Shown here: piece by piece, positions 2,477 to 10,839 of the stretch
Numbering within the stretch: the stretch's first letter is position 1
Layout: each line of letters starts with the position of its first letter
Assembly: GCA_902583265.1 (NCBI GenBank)
Contig: CACHVD010000009.1
Location: 1 to 41,743, forward strand
Direction of reading: 5' to 3'
Source: an uncultured Prochlorococcus sp.
GTDB taxonomy: Bacteria; Cyanobacteriota; Cyanobacteriia; PCC-6307; Cyanobiaceae
DNA: 41,743 bases
Translations under genes and position numbers: made by a program
The notes under the pieces: model-generated
The model's database searches: none
The model's input: the letters and a program-made list of their open reading frames with translations, nothing else
What the model was told of the DNA's origin: nothing

Positions 2477-3441
2477 TTAAGTTAAAAAAAAATAATTTTT
2501 TATTTAATGATGAAGTCAATACTAGTCTTAGTAACATAATTAAAAACAAATCATTTGCTAATGGTTACATATTTTATGGTGCTGAAGGAGTAGGAAAAAA
2601 GCAAACGGCTCTTCTCTTTATAGAAGAAATTTTCAAACAATCTTCACCAAGCGAGAATTTTGAAGAGAGAATTATCAACAATAACCATCCTGATTTTCTA
2701 GTTATCGAACCCGATTCTCTTTTGTCAACTAAAAATTCAAGAAGTTCCAGCCTTGAAAAAACAATAAGAAGTGAATCTGATATTATTAAGGTCACTCAAA
2801 TACGCAAGATAAAAACTTTTCTTAGTCAGAAATCAATAAACTCAGAAAAAAAAATTGTTTTAATTATTGATGCGCACCTTCTAAATGAATCAGCCTCAAA
2901 TTGTTTATTGAAAACTTTAGAAGAACCTAGTAATGGCATTTTTATTTTATTAACATCTAAATTAAACCTTCTCTTAGATACGATCATCTCAAGATGCCAA
3001 ATGATAAGGTTTCGACCCTTTTCCAGTAACCAAATAAAGTCTATTTTGAAAGATCATTTAGATACTTCTAAATTAGAGATTAATTCGAATTTTAAATTTG
3101 AAGATTTTATAAACTCCGCTAATGGATCTCCAAATCAATTATTGAAAAATATTGAAATTTGGAATGATTATTCAGATGAAATTATAAGTAAATTGGATTC
3201 TCCAATAAAAAATAGTCTAGAAATACTAGAAATCTCTAAATTAATATCTGAAAAATTAGACATTTATCAACAGATTTGTTTAGTCAATTTAATACAAACT
3301 ATTTGGTGGAGAAAGACAAAAAATATTAATTTAGTAAATAAACTTGAAAATTTAAAAAATCTCCTTAGAAGAAACATTCAACCAAAATTGGCATGGGAAA
3401 TTACTTTTTTAAAAATATCAATGAAAGATATACAAGTTTAA
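2473..3441 (+). CDS. holB: DNA polymerase III delta-prime subunit
   Basis: HolB is a clamp-loader subunit of the replicative polymerase that helps load the beta clamp. The 322 residues show the AAA+ layout: a P-loop-like [11 protein letters not shown] near residues 36-46, the Walker B-like region [20 protein letters not shown], and the sensor and arginine-finger segment containing SRCQ. The C-terminal helical collar is poorly conserved, as usual for delta-prime. The gene overlaps tmk by four bases. Its stop codon overlaps the stop codon of rpaA on the other strand (bases 3438-3441), leaving no room for a terminator between them. Confidence 0.92.
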
Positions 3442-4220
3442 TCGACTGCAGAGTTTATCAAATTAGGATTTCTTGCTTGAATAAACTCTTGCTTTGCAGT
3501 TTCAACTTGAGAACCAATGGGTAGCTCAAGACAATATCCCGCACCATATACAGTTTTTATATATGTGGGCTTACGTGGATCAGGTTCTAGTTTTGTGCGC
3601 AAGTGTCTAACATGAACTCTTATTGTCTCAATATCATCATCAGGTTCATATCCCCATACTTCTTTTAGGATTAATGCTGGCGATACAGTTTGACCATGCC
3701 TCTGCAACAGGCAGTGGAGTAATTCAAACTCAAGATGCGTTAATCTTACAGGCGATTCAAACCAGATAGCTTCAAATCTTTCAGGAACAAGAGTTAAAGG
3801 GCCATAATTTAGTATTTCTTGTTGATTACTAGAATTCAATTGTGCTCTATTCGTTCTTCTTAATAATGCTTTTATGCGTACATGTAATTCTTCTAGATCG
3901 AATGGCTTTGTAATGTAATCATCTGCTCCTGAATTAAAACCAGTCACTTTATCTTTAAGGCCCCCTAATGCAGTTATCATCAAAATTGGGATATTTGATG
4001 TTCTTTCATCCCTCCTAAGTCGCTGGCACAAAGTTAACCCATCAACACTTGGCAACATTAAATCTAATAGTATTAAATCTGGTGAGTATTGAAGGGCTAA
4101 TGCTTGTCCTTTAATTCCATCTTCAGCCTTTTGGACATCGAAACCAGAATGTTCTAAATGACCTGCCACTAAATCACGCATATCACGATCATCTTCAATT
4201 AAAAGGATTGAAATTTTCAT
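3438..4220 (-). CDS. rpaA: OmpR-type response regulator RpaA
   Basis: RpaA is the DNA-binding output regulator of the cyanobacterial circadian and light system and partners the histidine kinase SasA. The receiver domain (about 1-120) has acidic residues ED-D at 9-11, phospho-acceptor D53 in LLDLMLP, T82 and K104 in KPF. A winged-helix domain fills about 140-235 and includes [20 protein letters not shown] and a conserved [16 protein letters not shown] segment. QRLRRDERT and GFNSGADDY fit RpaA as I know it rather than RpaB. It is convergent with holB. The 408-base gap upstream presumably holds its promoter. A paralogous regulator is the only real alternative. Confidence 0.9.
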
Positions 4221-4628
4221 ATCTATAGAGTATTAATTTAAAATTAAGTTTTAGTATTATGATTCTCTCAAGAATTTATAAAGATTGCTGAATTAGTGTA
4301 AACAATTTTATCAATTAGATTTATCTAATAAATCAATAATACCAAGGGATTGAACATAAATTGTAAATTTTATGAAAGTTTAAATTTTACAATTTCTTTT
4401 GATTCTATTTACTTTTTCTTAATAATCAGATGAATATCAGGAAAAAAAATAATGATTAAATTTAAAAGAATATCTAATTAAAAGTGCCACAGTAGGCATC
4501 TAAGGATGAAACAAATAAGGGGGAATTAAAGTTTTTAAAGAAGATTTAATATTGTTTAAAGTTTTTTTGATTACTTCTGAGTGTTTAAATTATTAATTTT
4601 GTTTATATTAAAAAAAATTTAAGTTTCT
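4221..4628. other. 408-base gap between rpaA and a hypothetical gene
   Basis: This is the longest gene-free stretch in the window. It must contain the start region of rpaA (minus strand) and of the gene at 4629 (plus strand). Most of it is very AT-rich. One less AT-rich patch at about 4484-4525 has a weak hairpin (TGCC 4485-4488, GGCA 4495-4498) followed by a purine-rich run with five G. No tRNA, repeat array or convincing protein-coding frame is visible. A small RNA is possible but not shown. Confidence 0.5.
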
Positions 4629-4988
4629 ATGAAAAAGAATTCTATTATCTACTCTGATTTGTCAAAAAAACAACTAGAAATTCTTAAAGAACTTTATATT
4701 CAAAAAAAAGTTGAATCAATGAGTAATCAAGAACTTAAACAATATGTACTAGAAATTATTTCTCATCAGATAAACGATACTATTGGCAAAGAAGAAGAAA
4801 TGGAAGCATGGAGAGAAATGTCAGATTTTTTTGGAGAACAATTTGAAATAACTATCCAAGAAATACAAACAAAATATATTGACTATCAAAACGTTCCTGA
4901 AACAGAAATAGATCCTCAGAAACAAAGAATAGAATTACTTGAAAGGAATAATTTAGATCCAGAGAAAAAGGATATGTGGGATGATTAG
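4629..4988 (+). CDS. Hypothetical charged, helical protein, 119 aa
   Basis: I do not recognise this protein. It is soluble, rich in Glu, Lys and Gln, and predicted mostly helical, with no signal peptide or membrane segment. The core includes MSNQELKQYVLEIISHQIND and IGKEEEMEAWREMSDFFGEQ. The tail is acidic and ends in MWDD. The ATG follows an A/T-rich leader with no clear Shine-Dalgarno sequence. It lies alone between the long gap behind rpaA and the restriction-gene region, so it may be part of the accessory stretch rather than the core genome. Codon use looks like that of its neighbours. Confidence 0.7.
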   Translation: MKKNSIIYSDLSKKQLEILKELYIQKKVESMSNQELKQYVLEIISHQINDTIGKEEEMEAWREMSDFFGEQFEITIQEIQTKYIDYQNVPETEIDPQKQRIELLERNNLDPEKKDMWDD

Positions 4989-5048
4989 AATTTCCTGAAA
5001 GGTTTACTTGAAACTATAAAAGCAGAAACTATTAAATATTGATTATAA

Positions 5049-5141
5049 AGACGTATAAATAAATTATCTACCAAGAGAATTGGTTTTCTCAGATATCAAA
5101 TAGATCAATGGATAGATGGGAAAAGAGATACATGGAAATAA
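5049..5141 (+). pseudogene. Possible remnant of an AlpA/excisionase-type gene (C-terminal end only)
   Basis: One frame between stop codons reads KLSTKRIGFLRYQIDQWIDG followed by KRDTWK and a stop. This resembles the end of small AlpA/MerR-like winged-helix proteins, where a basic wing with an aromatic residue is followed by an E/D-I-x-x-W-I/L helix. The DNA upstream has in-frame stops and I could not find the expected N-terminal helix-turn-helix in any frame, so at most a fragment is left. The link to AlpA rests on about 25 residues read by eye and is tentative. Its position between a restriction gene at a tRNA and a core gene would suit a decayed integrative element. Confidence 0.3.
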
Positions 5142-5172: not shown

Positions 5173-6465
5173 TCATTCAAAAAGTATTTCCTCAGGATCT
5201 CTATATTGGATTACGCCTTCATATTCTGAATCAATTTTTCTTAGATATTCTTCTACATTTTTAAAACCTTGTTCAAAAACAATTTCGTTAACCATTTCAG
5301 CAAGTTTTTTGCCATTGATTAATAAAAGAGGATACTTATCTTCAAGAATTTCAATTTGTACTTTATCTGAAAAATAAGAGGTAGTTACATATACACCCAA
5401 CCATCCTCTTTTAAGTTTGGCGACTGTTCTTGCAATATGATTGCCTCCTGTTGGACTATTTAAGGATTCACATTTTGCTTGTCCTAAAACAATAACTTTT
5501 GCACTTCCAAAACCAGTTCCAATATCCATTCTCCCTATAAAGTCTATTCCAGAATCTCCACTACCTTTTGTTATCCACCCTGCTTTATAGTCTTTTGCAG
5601 ACTTCCTTATTAGATATTCAGTTACGATAGATGCTAAATTCTCAAATCTGAGTTTGTTGTTGTCATAAAAATCATATATTTCTTTTAGCGTTTTAAATTC
5701 TTTTGAACCTTTTTCTGGTTTTTGTTGAGAAGTTGGAAGAACATTCAGTTTAAATACATTTCTTCTTAAACTATCAATACTTTTATTCCCCAATCCAATC
5801 CATTTTTTCCATGATGAAGGTGCTTTTTTTAGTGTTTCCTCTATAGATAAATTTTTATCTCGCCGAAGGTTTATCCATTCCCAATCAAAATATTCATTTT
5901 CTAAAGTCATCTCCAATACAGCAAAATCAAAAACATAATTAACAAAATCTTTGTTAGTTTTTCCATTATGTTGAACAATTCTCTCTGCATTTGTAATTAT
6001 TCCAAATCCATTAAACTCCAAAAAACCTTTTTGCTTTCCATCAATTGATTTTCTTTTAAAAAATATTATCGGGCATGCCTCTCTTCTCACATTAATATTG
6101 CTTGAATTATGTATTTCAAATTGCTTAAGTAGTGCTTTATTGCCTGATTTTTTCTCAGGATCTCCTATGTCCTTATTATCTCCGTAATATCTAATATGAC
6201 CTTTTTGAACATTATAAAAATCTTGCCATGGAGTAACTAAAGAACCACTTTTATGTGGACTTGAAGAAGTAATTATGGCAGGTGTTCTTTCTATACTCTT
6301 ATTTCTTACTTTTCCTATAGGATTTATTCCACTTTCTAACAAAACTAAATTTTCATTTGGTAAGTCCGTATAAAATGAAAAGTTAGGATAACCATCAATT
6401 TCAATTTGATCTCTTACTTTATCTTTTGGATATCTAAATATTTGCCCAATTTTTAATTTATTCAT
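5173..6465 (-). CDS. AspBHI-like modification-dependent restriction endonuclease
   Basis: This is a probable stand-alone endonuclease that cuts DNA carrying modified cytosine. The N-terminal half (about 1-200) contains TPWQDFYNVQKGHIRYYGDN, which fits the SRA-like N-domain of the AspBHI/MspJI group. The C-terminal part (about 270-400) looks like an Mrr/HsdR-type nuclease: GDSGID (D304, D308) followed by the QAK motif (Q329, K331) in VIVLGQAKC, the D-Q/E-x-K signature of the PD-(D/E)xK fold. The length of 430 residues is close to the family's. No methyltransferase gene lies nearby, as expected for a modification-dependent enzyme. The gene has its own ATG and is flanked by the 11-bp repeats and tRNA-Asn upstream. 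Confidence is good for the nuclease domain and moderate for the AspBHI subfamily. Confidence 0.78.
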   Translation of the reverse strand: MNKLKIGQIFRYPKDKVRDQIEIDGYPNFSFYTDLPNENLVLLESGINPIGKVRNKSIERTPAIITSSSPHKSGSLVTPWQDFYNVQKGHIRYYGDNKDIGDPEKKSGNKALLKQFEIHNSSNINVRREACPIIFFKRKSIDGKQKGFLEFNGFGIITNAERIVQHNGKTNKDFVNYVFDFAVLEMTLENEYFDWEWINLRRDKNLSIEETLKKAPSSWKKWIGLGNKSIDSLRRNVFKLNVLPTSQQKPEKGSKEFKTLKEIYDFYDNNKLRFENLASIVTEYLIRKSAKDYKAGWITKGSGDSGIDFIGRMDIGTGFGSAKVIVLGQAKCESLNSPTGGNHIARTVAKLKRGWLGVYVTTSYFSDKVQIEILEDKYPLLLINGKKLAEMVNEIVFEQGFKNVEEYLRKIDSEYEGVIQYRDPEEILFE

Positions 6466-6571
6466 AATTTTCTCTGAACAAATAATTATATTTATTTTGC
6501 CAGATATTGAAAATAATTCCCCACCATTTATAAATTACTTCCCCACCATTTCCCCACCATTTCCCCACCAT
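6458..6571 (-). other. Short frame through the repeat array into the restriction gene start
   Basis: An ATG at 6571 opens a 37-codon frame that runs through the 11-bp repeats and stops inside the start of the restriction gene, overlapping its ATG by a few bases. Because 11 is not a multiple of three, the repeats read as changing Trp/Gly-rich words such as VGKWWGNGG. It could be a leader peptide or a chance frame created by the G-rich repeats. I see no ribosome binding site for it and do not call it a gene. Confidence 0.15.
6517..6571. repeat. 11-bp direct repeat array, five phased units
   Basis: The unit TTCCCCACCAT occurs exactly at 6517-6527, 6539-6549, 6550-6560 and 6561-6571. The slot at 6528-6538 is the right length but degenerate, so all units keep a strict 11-bp period, about one helical turn. 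The C-rich units stand out from the AT-rich surroundings. The array lies between the restriction gene start and the tRNA-Asn terminator. Such phased direct repeats suit cooperative protein binding, for example integrase arm sites or an operator for the restriction gene. It is too short and has no spacers, so it is not a CRISPR. Confidence 0.9.
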
Positions 6572-6587
6572 AAACATCACACAGAAA

Positions 6588-6612
6588 TAAAAAAAGACTC
6601 CTTATGGAGTCT
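6588..6612 (-). terminator. Rho-independent terminator after tRNA-Asn
   Basis: A perfect 7-bp stem (AGACTCC 6595-6601, GGAGTCT 6606-6612) with a TTAT loop is followed on the minus strand by a run of T (bases 6594 down to 6589). It lies about 25 bases past the 3' end of tRNA-Asn and would end its transcript before the repeat array. Confidence 0.85.
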
Positions 6613-6637
6613 GGTGAAAGTTAATTTATAATTTGAA

Positions 6638-6709
<72 letters not shown>

Positions 6710-6758
6710 ATATAAAATGAATTTAGCTCTTTAAAGTACCTTATGACAAGTAAAAGAA

Positions 6759-7433
6759 TTAATTATATTGAAATTTTGATGGTTCTTGCCAAGTAGACAA
6801 AAAGCCATTTTTCAACTCTGCTACTGAATCAGCATAAGTTAATTCTTCATATCGATGCGTAATCCATAAAGCGGACAAAGGTTTTTTATTATCATTTGTA
6901 AGATTTTTAATAGTATTTAAAACTTTTAATTGGCTGGTTTGATCAAGTAAAGCTGTAGGCTCATCCAAAAGAATAAAATTACTATTACTAATAAGAGCGC
7001 ATGCAATAGTTAAGCGTTGTTTTTGTCCGCCGCTTAACGTATGAGTTGGTCTTTTTTCAAAACCAGTTAATCCCACCTGATCAAGCACATTTTCAATTTT
7101 TTTATTAATTTCATAATCACTTATATTTTGTTTAATATTAATCAGAAGTTCGCTCCTGCAATTTGGCATTAATATTTGATGGTCAGGGTTTTGAAATACC
7201 ATTCCTATATTTGCCTTGGAATTAATAACTCCAGTGTTGGGATTTATTATGCCATTAATTAATTTTAAAAGGGTACTTTTCCCACTCCCGTTTTTACCAA
7301 CGACCATCCAAAACCCTGGTTTTTTTATTGATAAATTACACTTAAAAATTAAATTTTCTTTTTTACCCGGATAAGAAAAAGAGACATCTTTGAAATGAAT
7401 ATAAGGTACTTCATTTTCAAGAAAATCTCGCAT
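6759..7433 (-). CDS. ECF/CbiO-type ABC transporter ATP-binding protein
   Basis: This cytoplasmic ATPase would power an importer, probably of the energy-coupling-factor type. It has a full nucleotide-binding domain: Walker A GKNGSGKST near residue 47, the Q-loop in VFQNPDHQILMP, the signature LSGGQKQRL, Walker B ILLDEPTALLD and the H-loop WITHR. The FQNPDHQ motif is typical of CbiO/EcfA proteins and their plastid relatives. No transmembrane or substrate-binding partner is nearby, so the substrate cannot be named. The ATG overlaps the stop of the upstream gene (TAATG at 7431-7435), indicating coupling. The tRNA-Asn gene lies downstream on the same strand. Confidence 0.88.
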   Translation of the reverse strand: MRDFLENEVPYIHFKDVSFSYPGKKENLIFKCNLSIKKPGFWMVVGKNGSGKSTLLKLINGIINPNTGVINSKANIGMVFQNPDHQILMPNCRSELLINIKQNISDYEINKKIENVLDQVGLTGFEKRPTHTLSGGQKQRLTIACALISNSNFILLDEPTALLDQTSQLKVLNTIKNLTNDNKKPLSALWITHRYEELTYADSVAELKNGFLSTWQEPSKFQYN

Positions 7434-7714
7434 TAATTCTGTGATTCTAAGTTGAGAGAGAAACCTGGTCTCTTAGCCCCTCCTGCAACTGATGATTTTT
7501 CATATATTTGAACAGAAATGATTTCTTTAGATCTTACAGCAATTAATTTATCTTGCACTTTATCACACCTTAATTCAATCAAATTTGAAGACTCTAAAGT
7601 TTCATTCATAGAACTTTTTATTTCATCAAAAATTCGTTTGACATCTTCAAATTCTTTCTTTTGAATTGAAAGTGGAAAAGGTGAATATCTCAAACTTAGT
7701 TCCAAGGAATACAT
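7433..7714 (-). CDS. Conserved hypothetical protein, about 93 aa
   Basis: I do not recognise a named family. It is a small soluble protein with an N-terminal beta-like segment (YSLELSLRYSPFPLSIQKKE), a helix with many acidic residues, and a C-terminal part ending in GGAKRPGFSLNLESQN. I chose the ATG at 7714 over a GTG two codons upstream; neither has a clear ribosome binding site. Its stop overlaps the start of the ABC ATPase gene by one base, so the two are likely an operon and may share a role in the transporter. That functional link is inference. Confidence 0.8.
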   Translation of the reverse strand: MYSLELSLRYSPFPLSIQKKEFEDVKRIFDEIKSSMNETLESSNLIELRCDKVQDKLIAVRSKEIISVQIYEKSSVAGGAKRPGFSLNLESQN

Positions 7715-9540: not shown

Positions 9541-9777
9541 TTAATCAATATATTCTTTAAGTTGATCTAATTTCAGCCAAGCATCTGGAACAGGTCTTCG
9601 CCATCGAACCTGGGCATATTCGTCTTTGACAGAGAGGATTTCTCCAGGACCCTCAAAGATGTAATTAGGTAAATCATCATCACTGGCAAGCGCCTCAATA
9701 CTGTTTCTATAATTTTCTTTATCGACAAAAACTAAGCTTCCTTTCTTCAGAGGTTTCTTTTGAATAGAATCTGTCAT
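9541..9777 (-). CDS. ndhO: NDH-1 complex subunit O
   Basis: NdhO is a small peripheral subunit of the thylakoid NDH-1 complex involved in cyclic electron flow and respiration. The 78 residues show the family pattern: KKGSLVFVDKENYRNSIEAL, the ASDDDLPNYIFEGPGEIL segment, the EYAQVRW strand and the ending WLKLDQL. It has no membrane segment, as expected for a subunit on the cytoplasmic arm. It is a lone gene convergent with the J-domain gene. I also considered the SH3-like NdhS, but the ASD-LPNY and WLKLDQL motifs fit NdhO. Confidence 0.9.
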   Translation of the reverse strand: MTDSIQKKPLKKGSLVFVDKENYRNSIEALASDDDLPNYIFEGPGEILSVKDEYAQVRWRRPVPDAWLKLDQLKEYID

Positions 9778-9912
9778 GTTAAAGTCTAGGAAGTTATTTT
9801 AAATTTATTATACAAAAACTTGTTTGATAAATATTTAAAAAAATTGATAACCGAATAATGATTACAAAATTCCAAAAAATTTAATAGCCTTATATGATAA
9901 ATATCTAATAAT

Positions 9913-10839
9913 ATGCGTCTTTTACTACTTGGCTGCACTGGATTTGTTGGTAAAGAACTTGTACCAACACTATTAAATGAAAACCACGAGATTTATATTA
10001 TAAGTAGAAAACCTATCAGTAAATTAAAACTTGATTTAGATTTCAATAAGTTTAAATTTTTTCAAATAGATTTATCAAAAGAAAAAAACTGGAATAACGA
10101 AAATCTTCTTAATATTCTAAAAGAAACAGATGGAATTATTAACTTGATGGGAGAACCCATAGCAGAAAAAAAATGGACTTCTGAACAAAAACAAGAGATT
10201 GAAAATAGTCGTATTAACGCCACGAAATTTATGATGAAGACCCTTAAAAATTTAAAAATAAACCCAAAAGTCATTATAAATGGATCAGCTATAGGTTATT
10301 ACGGTACAAGTTTGTCTAGTGAATTCACTGAAAATAGTCCTGGAGGAAAAGACTTTTTATCAAATCTTTGCAAAAATTGGGAAGCGGTCGCCGCTGAAAA
10401 ACCATTTTTCTCAAGGTTAGTTATTTTTAGAATTGGAATTGTCCTAGAAGCTGATGGAGGTGCATTAGGAAAAATGCTCCCTATATTTAAAGTTGGATTA
10501 GGTGGACCTATTGGAGATGGTAAGCAATGGATGAGTTGGATTCATAGAACTGATTTATGTGCACTAATTATTCAAGCATTAGTTGATAAAAAGTATTCGG
10601 GAGTATTTAATGCTGTTGCACCAAATCCAGTATCAATGAGAGAATTTTCTCAGACTTTAGGCAAATGTCTGAATAGACCTAATTTACTTCCAGTGCCTGG
10701 AGCAGTTTTAAAAATATTGTTAGGAGATGGAGCGAAAGTTGTTTTAGAAGGACAAAAAGTAATTAGCAGTAAAATCAAAAATTATAATTTTAAATATCCT
10801 CTTCTTGAGAAAGCAATTTTCGCCTCCACCAAGAATTAA
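9913..10839 (+). CDS. SDR-type epimerase/dehydratase, TIGR01777 family
   Basis: This is an NAD(P)-binding extended short-chain dehydrogenase of the YfcH/SDR39U1 group; the substrate is unknown in general. The N-terminus MRLLLLGCTGFVGKELVP has the GxTGxxG nucleotide loop. INLMGEPIAEKKWTSEQK, NGSAIGYYG and the C-terminal WMSWIHRTDL region are family hallmarks. The 308-residue length is normal. Its last 50 bases overlap the end of a convergent membrane-protein gene on the other strand. Confidence 0.9.
   Translation: MRLLLLGCTGFVGKELVPTLLNENHEIYIISRKPISKLKLDLDFNKFKFFQIDLSKEKNWNNENLLNILKETDGIINLMGEPIAEKKWTSEQKQEIENSRINATKFMMKTLKNLKINPKVIINGSAIGYYGTSLSSEFTENSPGGKDFLSNLCKNWEAVAAEKPFFSRLVIFRIGIVLEADGGALGKMLPIFKVGLGGPIGDGKQWMSWIHRTDLCALIIQALVDKKYSGVFNAVAPNPVSMREFSQTLGKCLNRPNLLPVPGAVLKILLGDGAKVVLEGQKVISSKIKNYNFKYPLLEKAIFASTKN

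Follow-up and report, generated by a model that had tools for sequence, protein, structure and literature searches.

The window, meaning the whole stretch of DNA analysed here (41,743 nucleotides from an uncultured Prochlorococcus sp.), carries on its minus strand (5173..6465) a gene for an MspJI-type modification-dependent restriction endonuclease of 430 amino acids, and this gene is carried as cargo by a tRNA-Asn integrative element, which is left-truncated in the window genome. We favour, at a probability of roughly three in four, a reading in which restriction dependent on 5-methylcytosine (5mC) would be exerted by the MspJI-type cargo of a trans-mobilised, integrase-less tRNA-Asn element. 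The nuclease gene would be the sole cargo of a small element that uses the 3' end of tRNA-Asn as its insertion point and consists of att, two 11-bp repeats, a gene for an AlpA-like directionality factor or regulator, the cargo, three repeats and att again, with a related autonomous element lending its integrase in trans for recombination. Its product would cleave in a methylation-dependent manner and restrict incoming modified-cytosine DNA, be it from phage or from islands of neighbours with C5-methyltransferases, and the host would be spared since it presumably makes no 5mC.

The intact form of the element is found in a complete genome, G359, where 14 bp repeating the 3' end of tRNA-Asn are followed by two 11-bp repeats, the AlpA-like gene, the nuclease gene on the opposite strand, three repeats and finally tRNA-Asn, the unit measuring 1773 bp (1.77 kb) from att to att and containing no integrase. 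Its left repeats (TTTCCCCACCA, twice) lie about 80 bp past the left att copy, the second one overlapping the start codon of the AlpA-like gene, whose product matches Phage_AlpA (E 5.7e-10) and a PHROG excisionase (E 1.1e-9). The window retains the nuclease, the right repeats and the end of the AlpA gene, and is without the left att copy, the left repeats and the first half of AlpA. The C-terminal remnant of the AlpA/excisionase-like gene (5059..5141, plus strand) was delimited by tblastn and alignment with G359; when the intact G359 protein is the query, its residues 31-65 are placed by tblastn at 5034-5138, with stops. The right-end repeats TTCCCCACCA, read from the sequence at 6517..6571 (plus strand), keep an 11/22-bp phase (starts at 6517, 6539, 6550 and 6561) and stand, as in G359, directly upstream of the nuclease start codon. 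They are followed by a hairpin, AGACTCC-TTAT-GGAGTCT, with a minus-strand T run (6595..6612, minus strand), which was recognised by eye and is probably the tRNA-Asn terminator; similar hairpins, also seen by eye, precede other att copies. The right attachment core AACTCCCCGGGCGG (6636..6649, minus strand) is the 3' end of tRNA-Asn (GTT; 6637..6710, minus strand; ARAGORN), the integration target, and the same 14 bp make up the left att copy of G359. Because its left end has been lost, apparently by deletion, the window copy is probably immobile.

Two core genes flank the site: on the left a gene for a 119-aa DUF7326 protein (4629..4988, plus strand; Pfam PF24012, E 4.1e-18) and on the right an ABC transporter ATPase gene (6759..7433, minus strand; Pfam ABC_tran, E 5.6e-28). 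DUF7326 is matched in 100 of 121 genus genomes, including 39 of the 41 that are at least 90% complete; it was considered as a phage-derived partner and ruled out, being a core gene with no match in phage records (its PHROG matches are weak, the best at E 0.0024). The sequence-only reading had placed the nuclease at a tRNA locus between rpaA and an ABC ATPase. The tRNA locus is indeed there, as are the regulator and ATPase genes, but the name rpaA is unconfirmed, the best NCBIfam match of the response-regulator gene (3438-4220) being RpaB and falling below that model's cut-off, and the nuclease does not directly adjoin the regulator, the DUF7326 gene lying between them.

The interval from DUF7326 to tRNA-Asn was collected from 101 genomes, the window and the two other nuclease carriers included; 17 of these stretches stop short of tRNA-Asn and stand outside the interval counts, leaving 84, all of which have the ABC ATPase. 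The interval measures at most 350 bp in 26 of them, 351-600 bp in 8 and more than 600 bp in the other 50, the longest reaching 12.6 kb, and insertions here are thus frequent. We counted 22 places with the paired repeat CCCCACCATTNCCCCACCA, spread over 12 of the 265 genus genomes, the backwards-read control pattern being absent (0) among the matches listed, and either DUF7326 or tRNA-Asn is visible on the contig for 20 of these places; the other two (G466:C20 and G558:C26) are short contigs with an att copy only. AlpA relatives were found at 56 places in 46 of the 265 genomes, and 51 places were examined (left out were the window genome, G592:C2, two places of G466 and one of G375). Of the 51, 43 have CTCCCCGGGCG with at most one mismatch no more than 410 bp upstream of the AlpA gene, the other 8 having no nearby copy. 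In 35 of the 51 (31 genomes), the tRNA-Asn att copy lies 100-133 bp upstream; 33 of these 35 elements share their stretch with DUF7326 or tRNA-Asn, and 31 could be spanned from att to att (0.8-9.8 kb).

Just before AlpA, 31 of the 35 elements bear an 11-bp tandem matching at 9 or more of its 11 positions, as against 0/35 for each of the control periods 7-10 and 12-15 and a mean of 0.09/35 for shuffled sequences. The repeat itself varies among elements (TTCCCCACCAT, TTCACGACCAT, ATTCCCAACAT, CTTCCCACCAT and others). The two ends could be compared in 27 elements, and in these the left repeat agrees better with the right end of the same element than with the right ends of others (none of 10,000 permutations was as good; 50 of 10,000 when only one element per distinct repeat was kept, n=16). 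This agreement reaches 9-11 of 11 bases in 14 of the 27, the G359-type element included, and only 6-8 of 11 in the other 13, which is the background level (other elements average 8.05). The rule of paired end repeats is therefore not general and holds for 14 of 27. In some of the 13 poorly matching elements, the right end may be a wrong or a decayed one, given that att copies are stacked. Such stacking was observed at L060 (G375) and L051 (G473), where up to three att copies lie in tandem to the left of one tRNA-Asn, each followed by its own 11-bp repeat pair.

What might these repeats do? Phage lambda Int binds arm-type sites, and on this model we propose that the right-end repeats TTCCCCACCA could be integrase arm-type sites or, alternatively, AlpA-binding sites. 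A competing explanation, which we regard as unlikely and yet as the one that fares best, holds that they are AlpA operators controlling the cargo promoter and that the units move when flanking core genes or att copies recombine homologously. This would agree with the position of the right repeats directly upstream of the nuclease start in both genomes, with the overlap between the second left repeat of G359 and the AlpA start codon, and with the 13 of 27 elements lacking a good right-end match, as operators of AlpA alone would allow. It is at odds, however, with the constant spacing between att and left repeat, with the att copies that flank the units, with the tandem stacking of units in G473, G375 and G306, and with the existence of integrase-bearing units whose left repeats keep the same spacing.

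These integrase-bearing units are also the candidates for helpers of the integrase-less ones. A tblastn search with the G375 integrase over 129 stretches and 25 genomes revealed integrases 62-66% identical to it in G477, G413, G443 and G517. An att copy lies upstream of each of the five, that of G375 included; DUF7326 or tRNA-Asn is co-located in G375, G477 and G517, and only an att copy in G413 and G443. More distant integrases occur in G479, inside the tRNA-Asn interval, and in G493, elsewhere and with no att copy seen. The integrase-bearing relatives match the PHROG phrog_1 integrase. In three of them, a pair of repeats comes after the att copy at much the same distance (TTTCCCGACCA in G375, TTCCCAACAT in both G477 and G413), and TTCCCAACAT also marks the integrase-less elements of G311 and G389. 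Since integrase-bearing relatives share this left-end plan, we infer that integrase-less elements are moved in trans by the integrases of visiting relatives. Of the assemblies examined, 12 of the 13 with TTCCCCACCA elements (several incomplete, G359 complete) have no match to the G375 integrase at E 1e-10, the remaining one, G473, having a 30% match, and neither G359 nor the window genome gave a match to it by tblastn. The PF00589 matches of G359 lie outside the unit (one, a 389-aa gene, is of a kind present in many of the 60 genomes surveyed; the other, 437 aa long, scores below the cut-off). The PF00589 survey of these 60 genomes found one integrase within an interval, that of G479, and missed those of G375 and G477, and was not used as proof of absence. 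The nearest integrase-bearing element differs by one base in its repeat, and the cognate integrase may be another. In viral contigs, scans that need exact peptide or DNA words brought up no close relative of the nuclease, of AlpA or of the integrase, and none of the att-repeat pattern. One viral contig with a triple repeat (L167) was considered as a free form and rejected, its ORFs resembling those of an unrelated GC-rich phage and no tRNA being present.

Could the integrase-less unit instead be a decayed tycheposon that lost its recombinase, rather than one of a trans-mobilised class? The existence of integrase-bearing relatives would suit this explanation, as would the 54 residues of integrase end retained in G270 (L067:7572-7733), a decayed relative of the G375 integrase. 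Against it, many integrase-less units keep att and AlpA with differing cargos, and such repeated sparing is unexpected under random decay; we find this explanation unlikely as well, and slightly more so than that of the operators.

The cargo enzyme itself had been proposed, by the sequence-only reading, to be an AspBHI-like, modification-dependent nuclease of 430 residues encoded at 5173-6465. The ORF is exactly that, on the minus strand, and its kind is borne out by sequence (Pfam, PADLOC and phmmer matches and the MspJI alignment). Pfam matches to RE_AspBHI_N (E 1.3e-27) and Mrr_cat (E 9.5e-8), the two profiles whose search had been suggested, both exceed the curated cut-offs, and the protein consists of an SRA-like N domain (residues 42-224) and an Mrr-type nuclease domain (residues 290-392); the PADLOC model of a type II methyl-directed enzyme, mREase_II PDLC03206, covers residues 3-429 (E 6.8e-155), and NCBIfam has no model for this protein. 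The AspBHI label holds as to the profile and fails as to the nearest solved relative, which is MspJI (4f0p; phmmer E 1.2e-87, residues 6-428), followed by AspBHI (4oc8; E 1.6e-15) and LpnPI (E 0.0062), so that an AspBHI relative proper was ruled out. The motifs are as claimed: YYGDN at residues 93-97, D304-x3-D308 and Q329-x-K331. Identity to MspJI extends over 163 of 422 aligned positions (39%), and D308, Q329 and K331 align with MspJI D334, Q355 and K357, all three kept, which we take to be the catalytic residues of MspJI. An AlphaFold model built from one sequence had a pLDDT of 32.6.

The (D/E)..(D/E/Q)XK nuclease pattern is given in an excerpt of PMC3874153. In MspJI, according to the consulted portion of PMC4499157, S90, W101, D103, Y114, F115, G116 and D117 hold the flipped 5-methylcytosine, E65 contacts the orphan guanine and K173 is a candidate for reading the purine at +3. 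By alignment, E65, S90, W101, D103, Y114, G116, D117 and K173 are all kept in the nuclease, and thus six of the seven 5mC-pocket residues are identical, the exception being F115, replaced by Y; the same portion of PMC4499157 has Y at this position in AspBHI and LpnPI too. By sequence, the nuclease is a full-length member of the MspJI family, predicted to depend on 5mC. As K173 is kept, an mCNNR-like recognition site may be guessed. It is rather improbable, in our estimate, that the target is something other than 5mC, for example another cytosine modification of cyanophages. In favour of such a target, the family takes 5hmC too (PMC3874153, in the excerpt consulted) and one pocket residue is changed (F115 to Y, a Y shared with AspBHI and LpnPI); against it, every other pocket residue that was compared is the same as in MspJI.

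Would a 5mC-dependent enzyme meet its substrate? In the genus, 68 of 265 genomes have C5-methyltransferase genes (31 of the 87 more complete ones), and therefore 5mC-bearing DNA should circulate among neighbours. Among phage records, 883 have a C5-methyltransferase match, with no cyanophage among the matches listed. No such match was found in the window assembly or in G359, the two carriers with an intact nuclease, and there is one in G433, where the copy is broken; this contrast fits the prediction of self-damage, but with three genomes, two of them about 65% complete, and a chance of about 0.14 given 68 positives in 265, it proves nothing.

The three carriers just named are the only ones among 266 genus genomes with a nuclease match: the window genome, G359 (97% identity) and G433 (81-83%), the last with a copy disrupted by in-frame stops and by a change of frame, which could be sequencing error, G433 being a single-cell assembly. 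Matches were also found in 2 of 400 genomes of a family draw and in 1 of 319 of a phylum draw, this one being the window's own. The gene is accordingly accessory, as had been suggested, and not present throughout Prochlorococcus. Its nearest plasmid relative is 40% identical, and phage records contain one match, at 22%. Between the window and G359, the nuclease has a dS of 0.139 and a dN of 0.0137, while the dS of six flanking genes is 0.35-0.58 (Fisher test on synonymous differences, 4.6e-12 against the flanks and 1.0e-7 against the two nearest genes), and identity to G359 is 94-100% in 12 of 12 100-base bins of 5300-6499, compared with 64-95% in bins 4400-5099 and 6600-7599. The simplest reading, because nuclease dS is below that of flanking genes, is that the cassette passed between lineages after their split. 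The pairwise dN/dS of 0.098 in turn points to a protein kept by selection. That the nuclease is a stationary, vertically inherited solo restriction gene that by chance sits beside a tRNA, with no mobile element involved, is highly improbable, for even if the window alone, with no left att copy, left repeats or AlpA start, could suggest it, the full unit in G359 mostly refutes it, and the lack of a match in 263 of 266 genus genomes, a nuclease dS that does not reach half the value of any of six neighbours and a third carrier with the nuclease elsewhere in its genome all speak against it. The broken copy of this third carrier (L003:8001-9289 and 9606-9923) lies away from tRNA-Asn and is adjoined by a 105-aa gene that also recurs within several tRNA-Asn intervals, as if islands exchange cargo.

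The nuclease had been described as a gene standing alone and as a one-gene defence module in a genus that keeps few restriction genes. It has indeed no adjoining methyltransferase partner; it is, however, the cargo of an integrative element, truncated here, and in other genomes of the genus type I, type II, type ISP and MrcB-like genes occupy the tRNA-Asn site, so that it is not the lone defence gene of its genus. Cargo of the restriction or nuclease-helicase type was recognised in at least 10 of the 31 AlpA elements spanned, a lower bound, as PADLOC and Pfam were run on chosen cargo proteins: the MspJI type in G359, which is the one intact copy of this cassette known; a type II methyltransferase plus nuclease in G504; a full type ISP enzyme in G515; Mrr_cat_2-helicase proteins with helicase-associated repeats in G416 and G306, and one of Mrr_cat_2-helicase type in G311 (PADLOC match); an MrcB_N-NOV_C protein in G316; a helicase with an MTES_1575 match just below cut-off in G570; a Z1 helicase in G397; and a PDDEXK-type protein in G389. 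The remaining AlpA elements contain DUF805 proteins, large repeat proteins or unknown genes. Among the intervals without AlpA, that of G386 contains type I M and R proteins and that of G356 a C5-cytosine methyltransferase; G306 also has such a methyltransferase between DUF7326 and tRNA-Asn, next to two AlpA elements.

Some of these cargos deserve description in their own right. The single cargo of the AlpA elements at L049:10084-13383, L084:1630-4752 and L227:11979-14873 is a protein of 964-1099 aa that combines Mrr_cat_2 and an SF2 helicase with helicase-associated repeats (seven stretches in L049 and five in L227 by Pfam; L084 by PADLOC), the repeats standing where a type ISP enzyme has its methyltransferase and specificity parts; possibly, these proteins represent a separate nuclease-helicase defence type. 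Very large repeat proteins also occur as AlpA-type cargo (L053:1656-7022, L051:869-4366 and L220:8460-12878), that of L053 (1788 aa) having beta-propeller, cadherin and RTX calcium-binding repeats. At the tRNA-Asn site of G356, the C5-cytosine methyltransferase (L069:2906-3919) is accompanied by two further proteins (L069:1191-2021 and 2251-2862), one of them HhH-GPD repair-like and one unknown, of 276 aa, a set that is a possible natural opponent of an MspJI-type enzyme. It is tempting to speculate, albeit with considerable doubt, that the tRNA-Asn site works as a defence exchange, where integrase-less cassettes, with AlpA as their sole recombination gene, bear in their end repeats an 11-bp 'address' that picks the passing helper integrase, and where the MspJI cassette would, besides cutting methylated phage DNA, also exclude rival islands that methylate the host, because 5mC nuclease cassettes and C5-methyltransferase islands use the same site.

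Prochlorococcus is treated as a minimal cell, and small single-gene cassettes offer a route to ask how its defence genes move; the tandem end repeats, moreover, make the idea of a helper integrase testable with plasmids. Strains with the nuclease gene may, besides, destroy DNA that contains 5mC, a point of relevance to attempts to transform Prochlorococcus, for which restriction-modification is named as a remaining hurdle in the part of PMC7523629 consulted.

How does the element compare with known systems? With the tycheposons of Prochlorococcus, reportedly the subject of work by Hackl and colleagues in 2023, the G359 unit shares insertion at a tRNA gene, 3'-end copies, the carriage of cargo and the host, but tycheposons carry a tyrosine recombinase and the 1.77-kb unit does not. 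The unit is also shorter, at 1773 bp, than the 4-200 kb stated for tycheposons in an excerpt of PMC10872708. A second comparison is offered by integrative islands of the AlpA/Vis type, such as P4-like islands and CP4-57, and by the comparable hitcher elements, which share with it an AlpA-like excisionase and the use of a tRNA 3' end as att; unlike the AlpA/Vis-type islands, the G359 unit has no integrase, AlpA being its only recombination-type gene. In the literature searched on tycheposons, tRNA-Asn islands, Prochlorococcus restriction and AlpA, we did not find a description of this element among the matches listed, and a tRNA-Asn cassette that lacks an integrase and bears 11-bp end repeats may in this sense be called an undescribed variant. 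The enzyme, by contrast, appears to be a new member of a known family: it shares over its whole length the two-domain layout of the MspJI family (FspEI, LpnPI, AspBHI, RlaI, SgrTI) and, at 39% identity, the pocket and nuclease residues of MspJI (PDB 4f0p/4f0q/4r28). Unlike MspJI, whose source is presumably Mycobacterium, it is known here from its sequence and is housed, with no adjoining methyltransferase gene, within an integrative element of a marine cyanobacterium.
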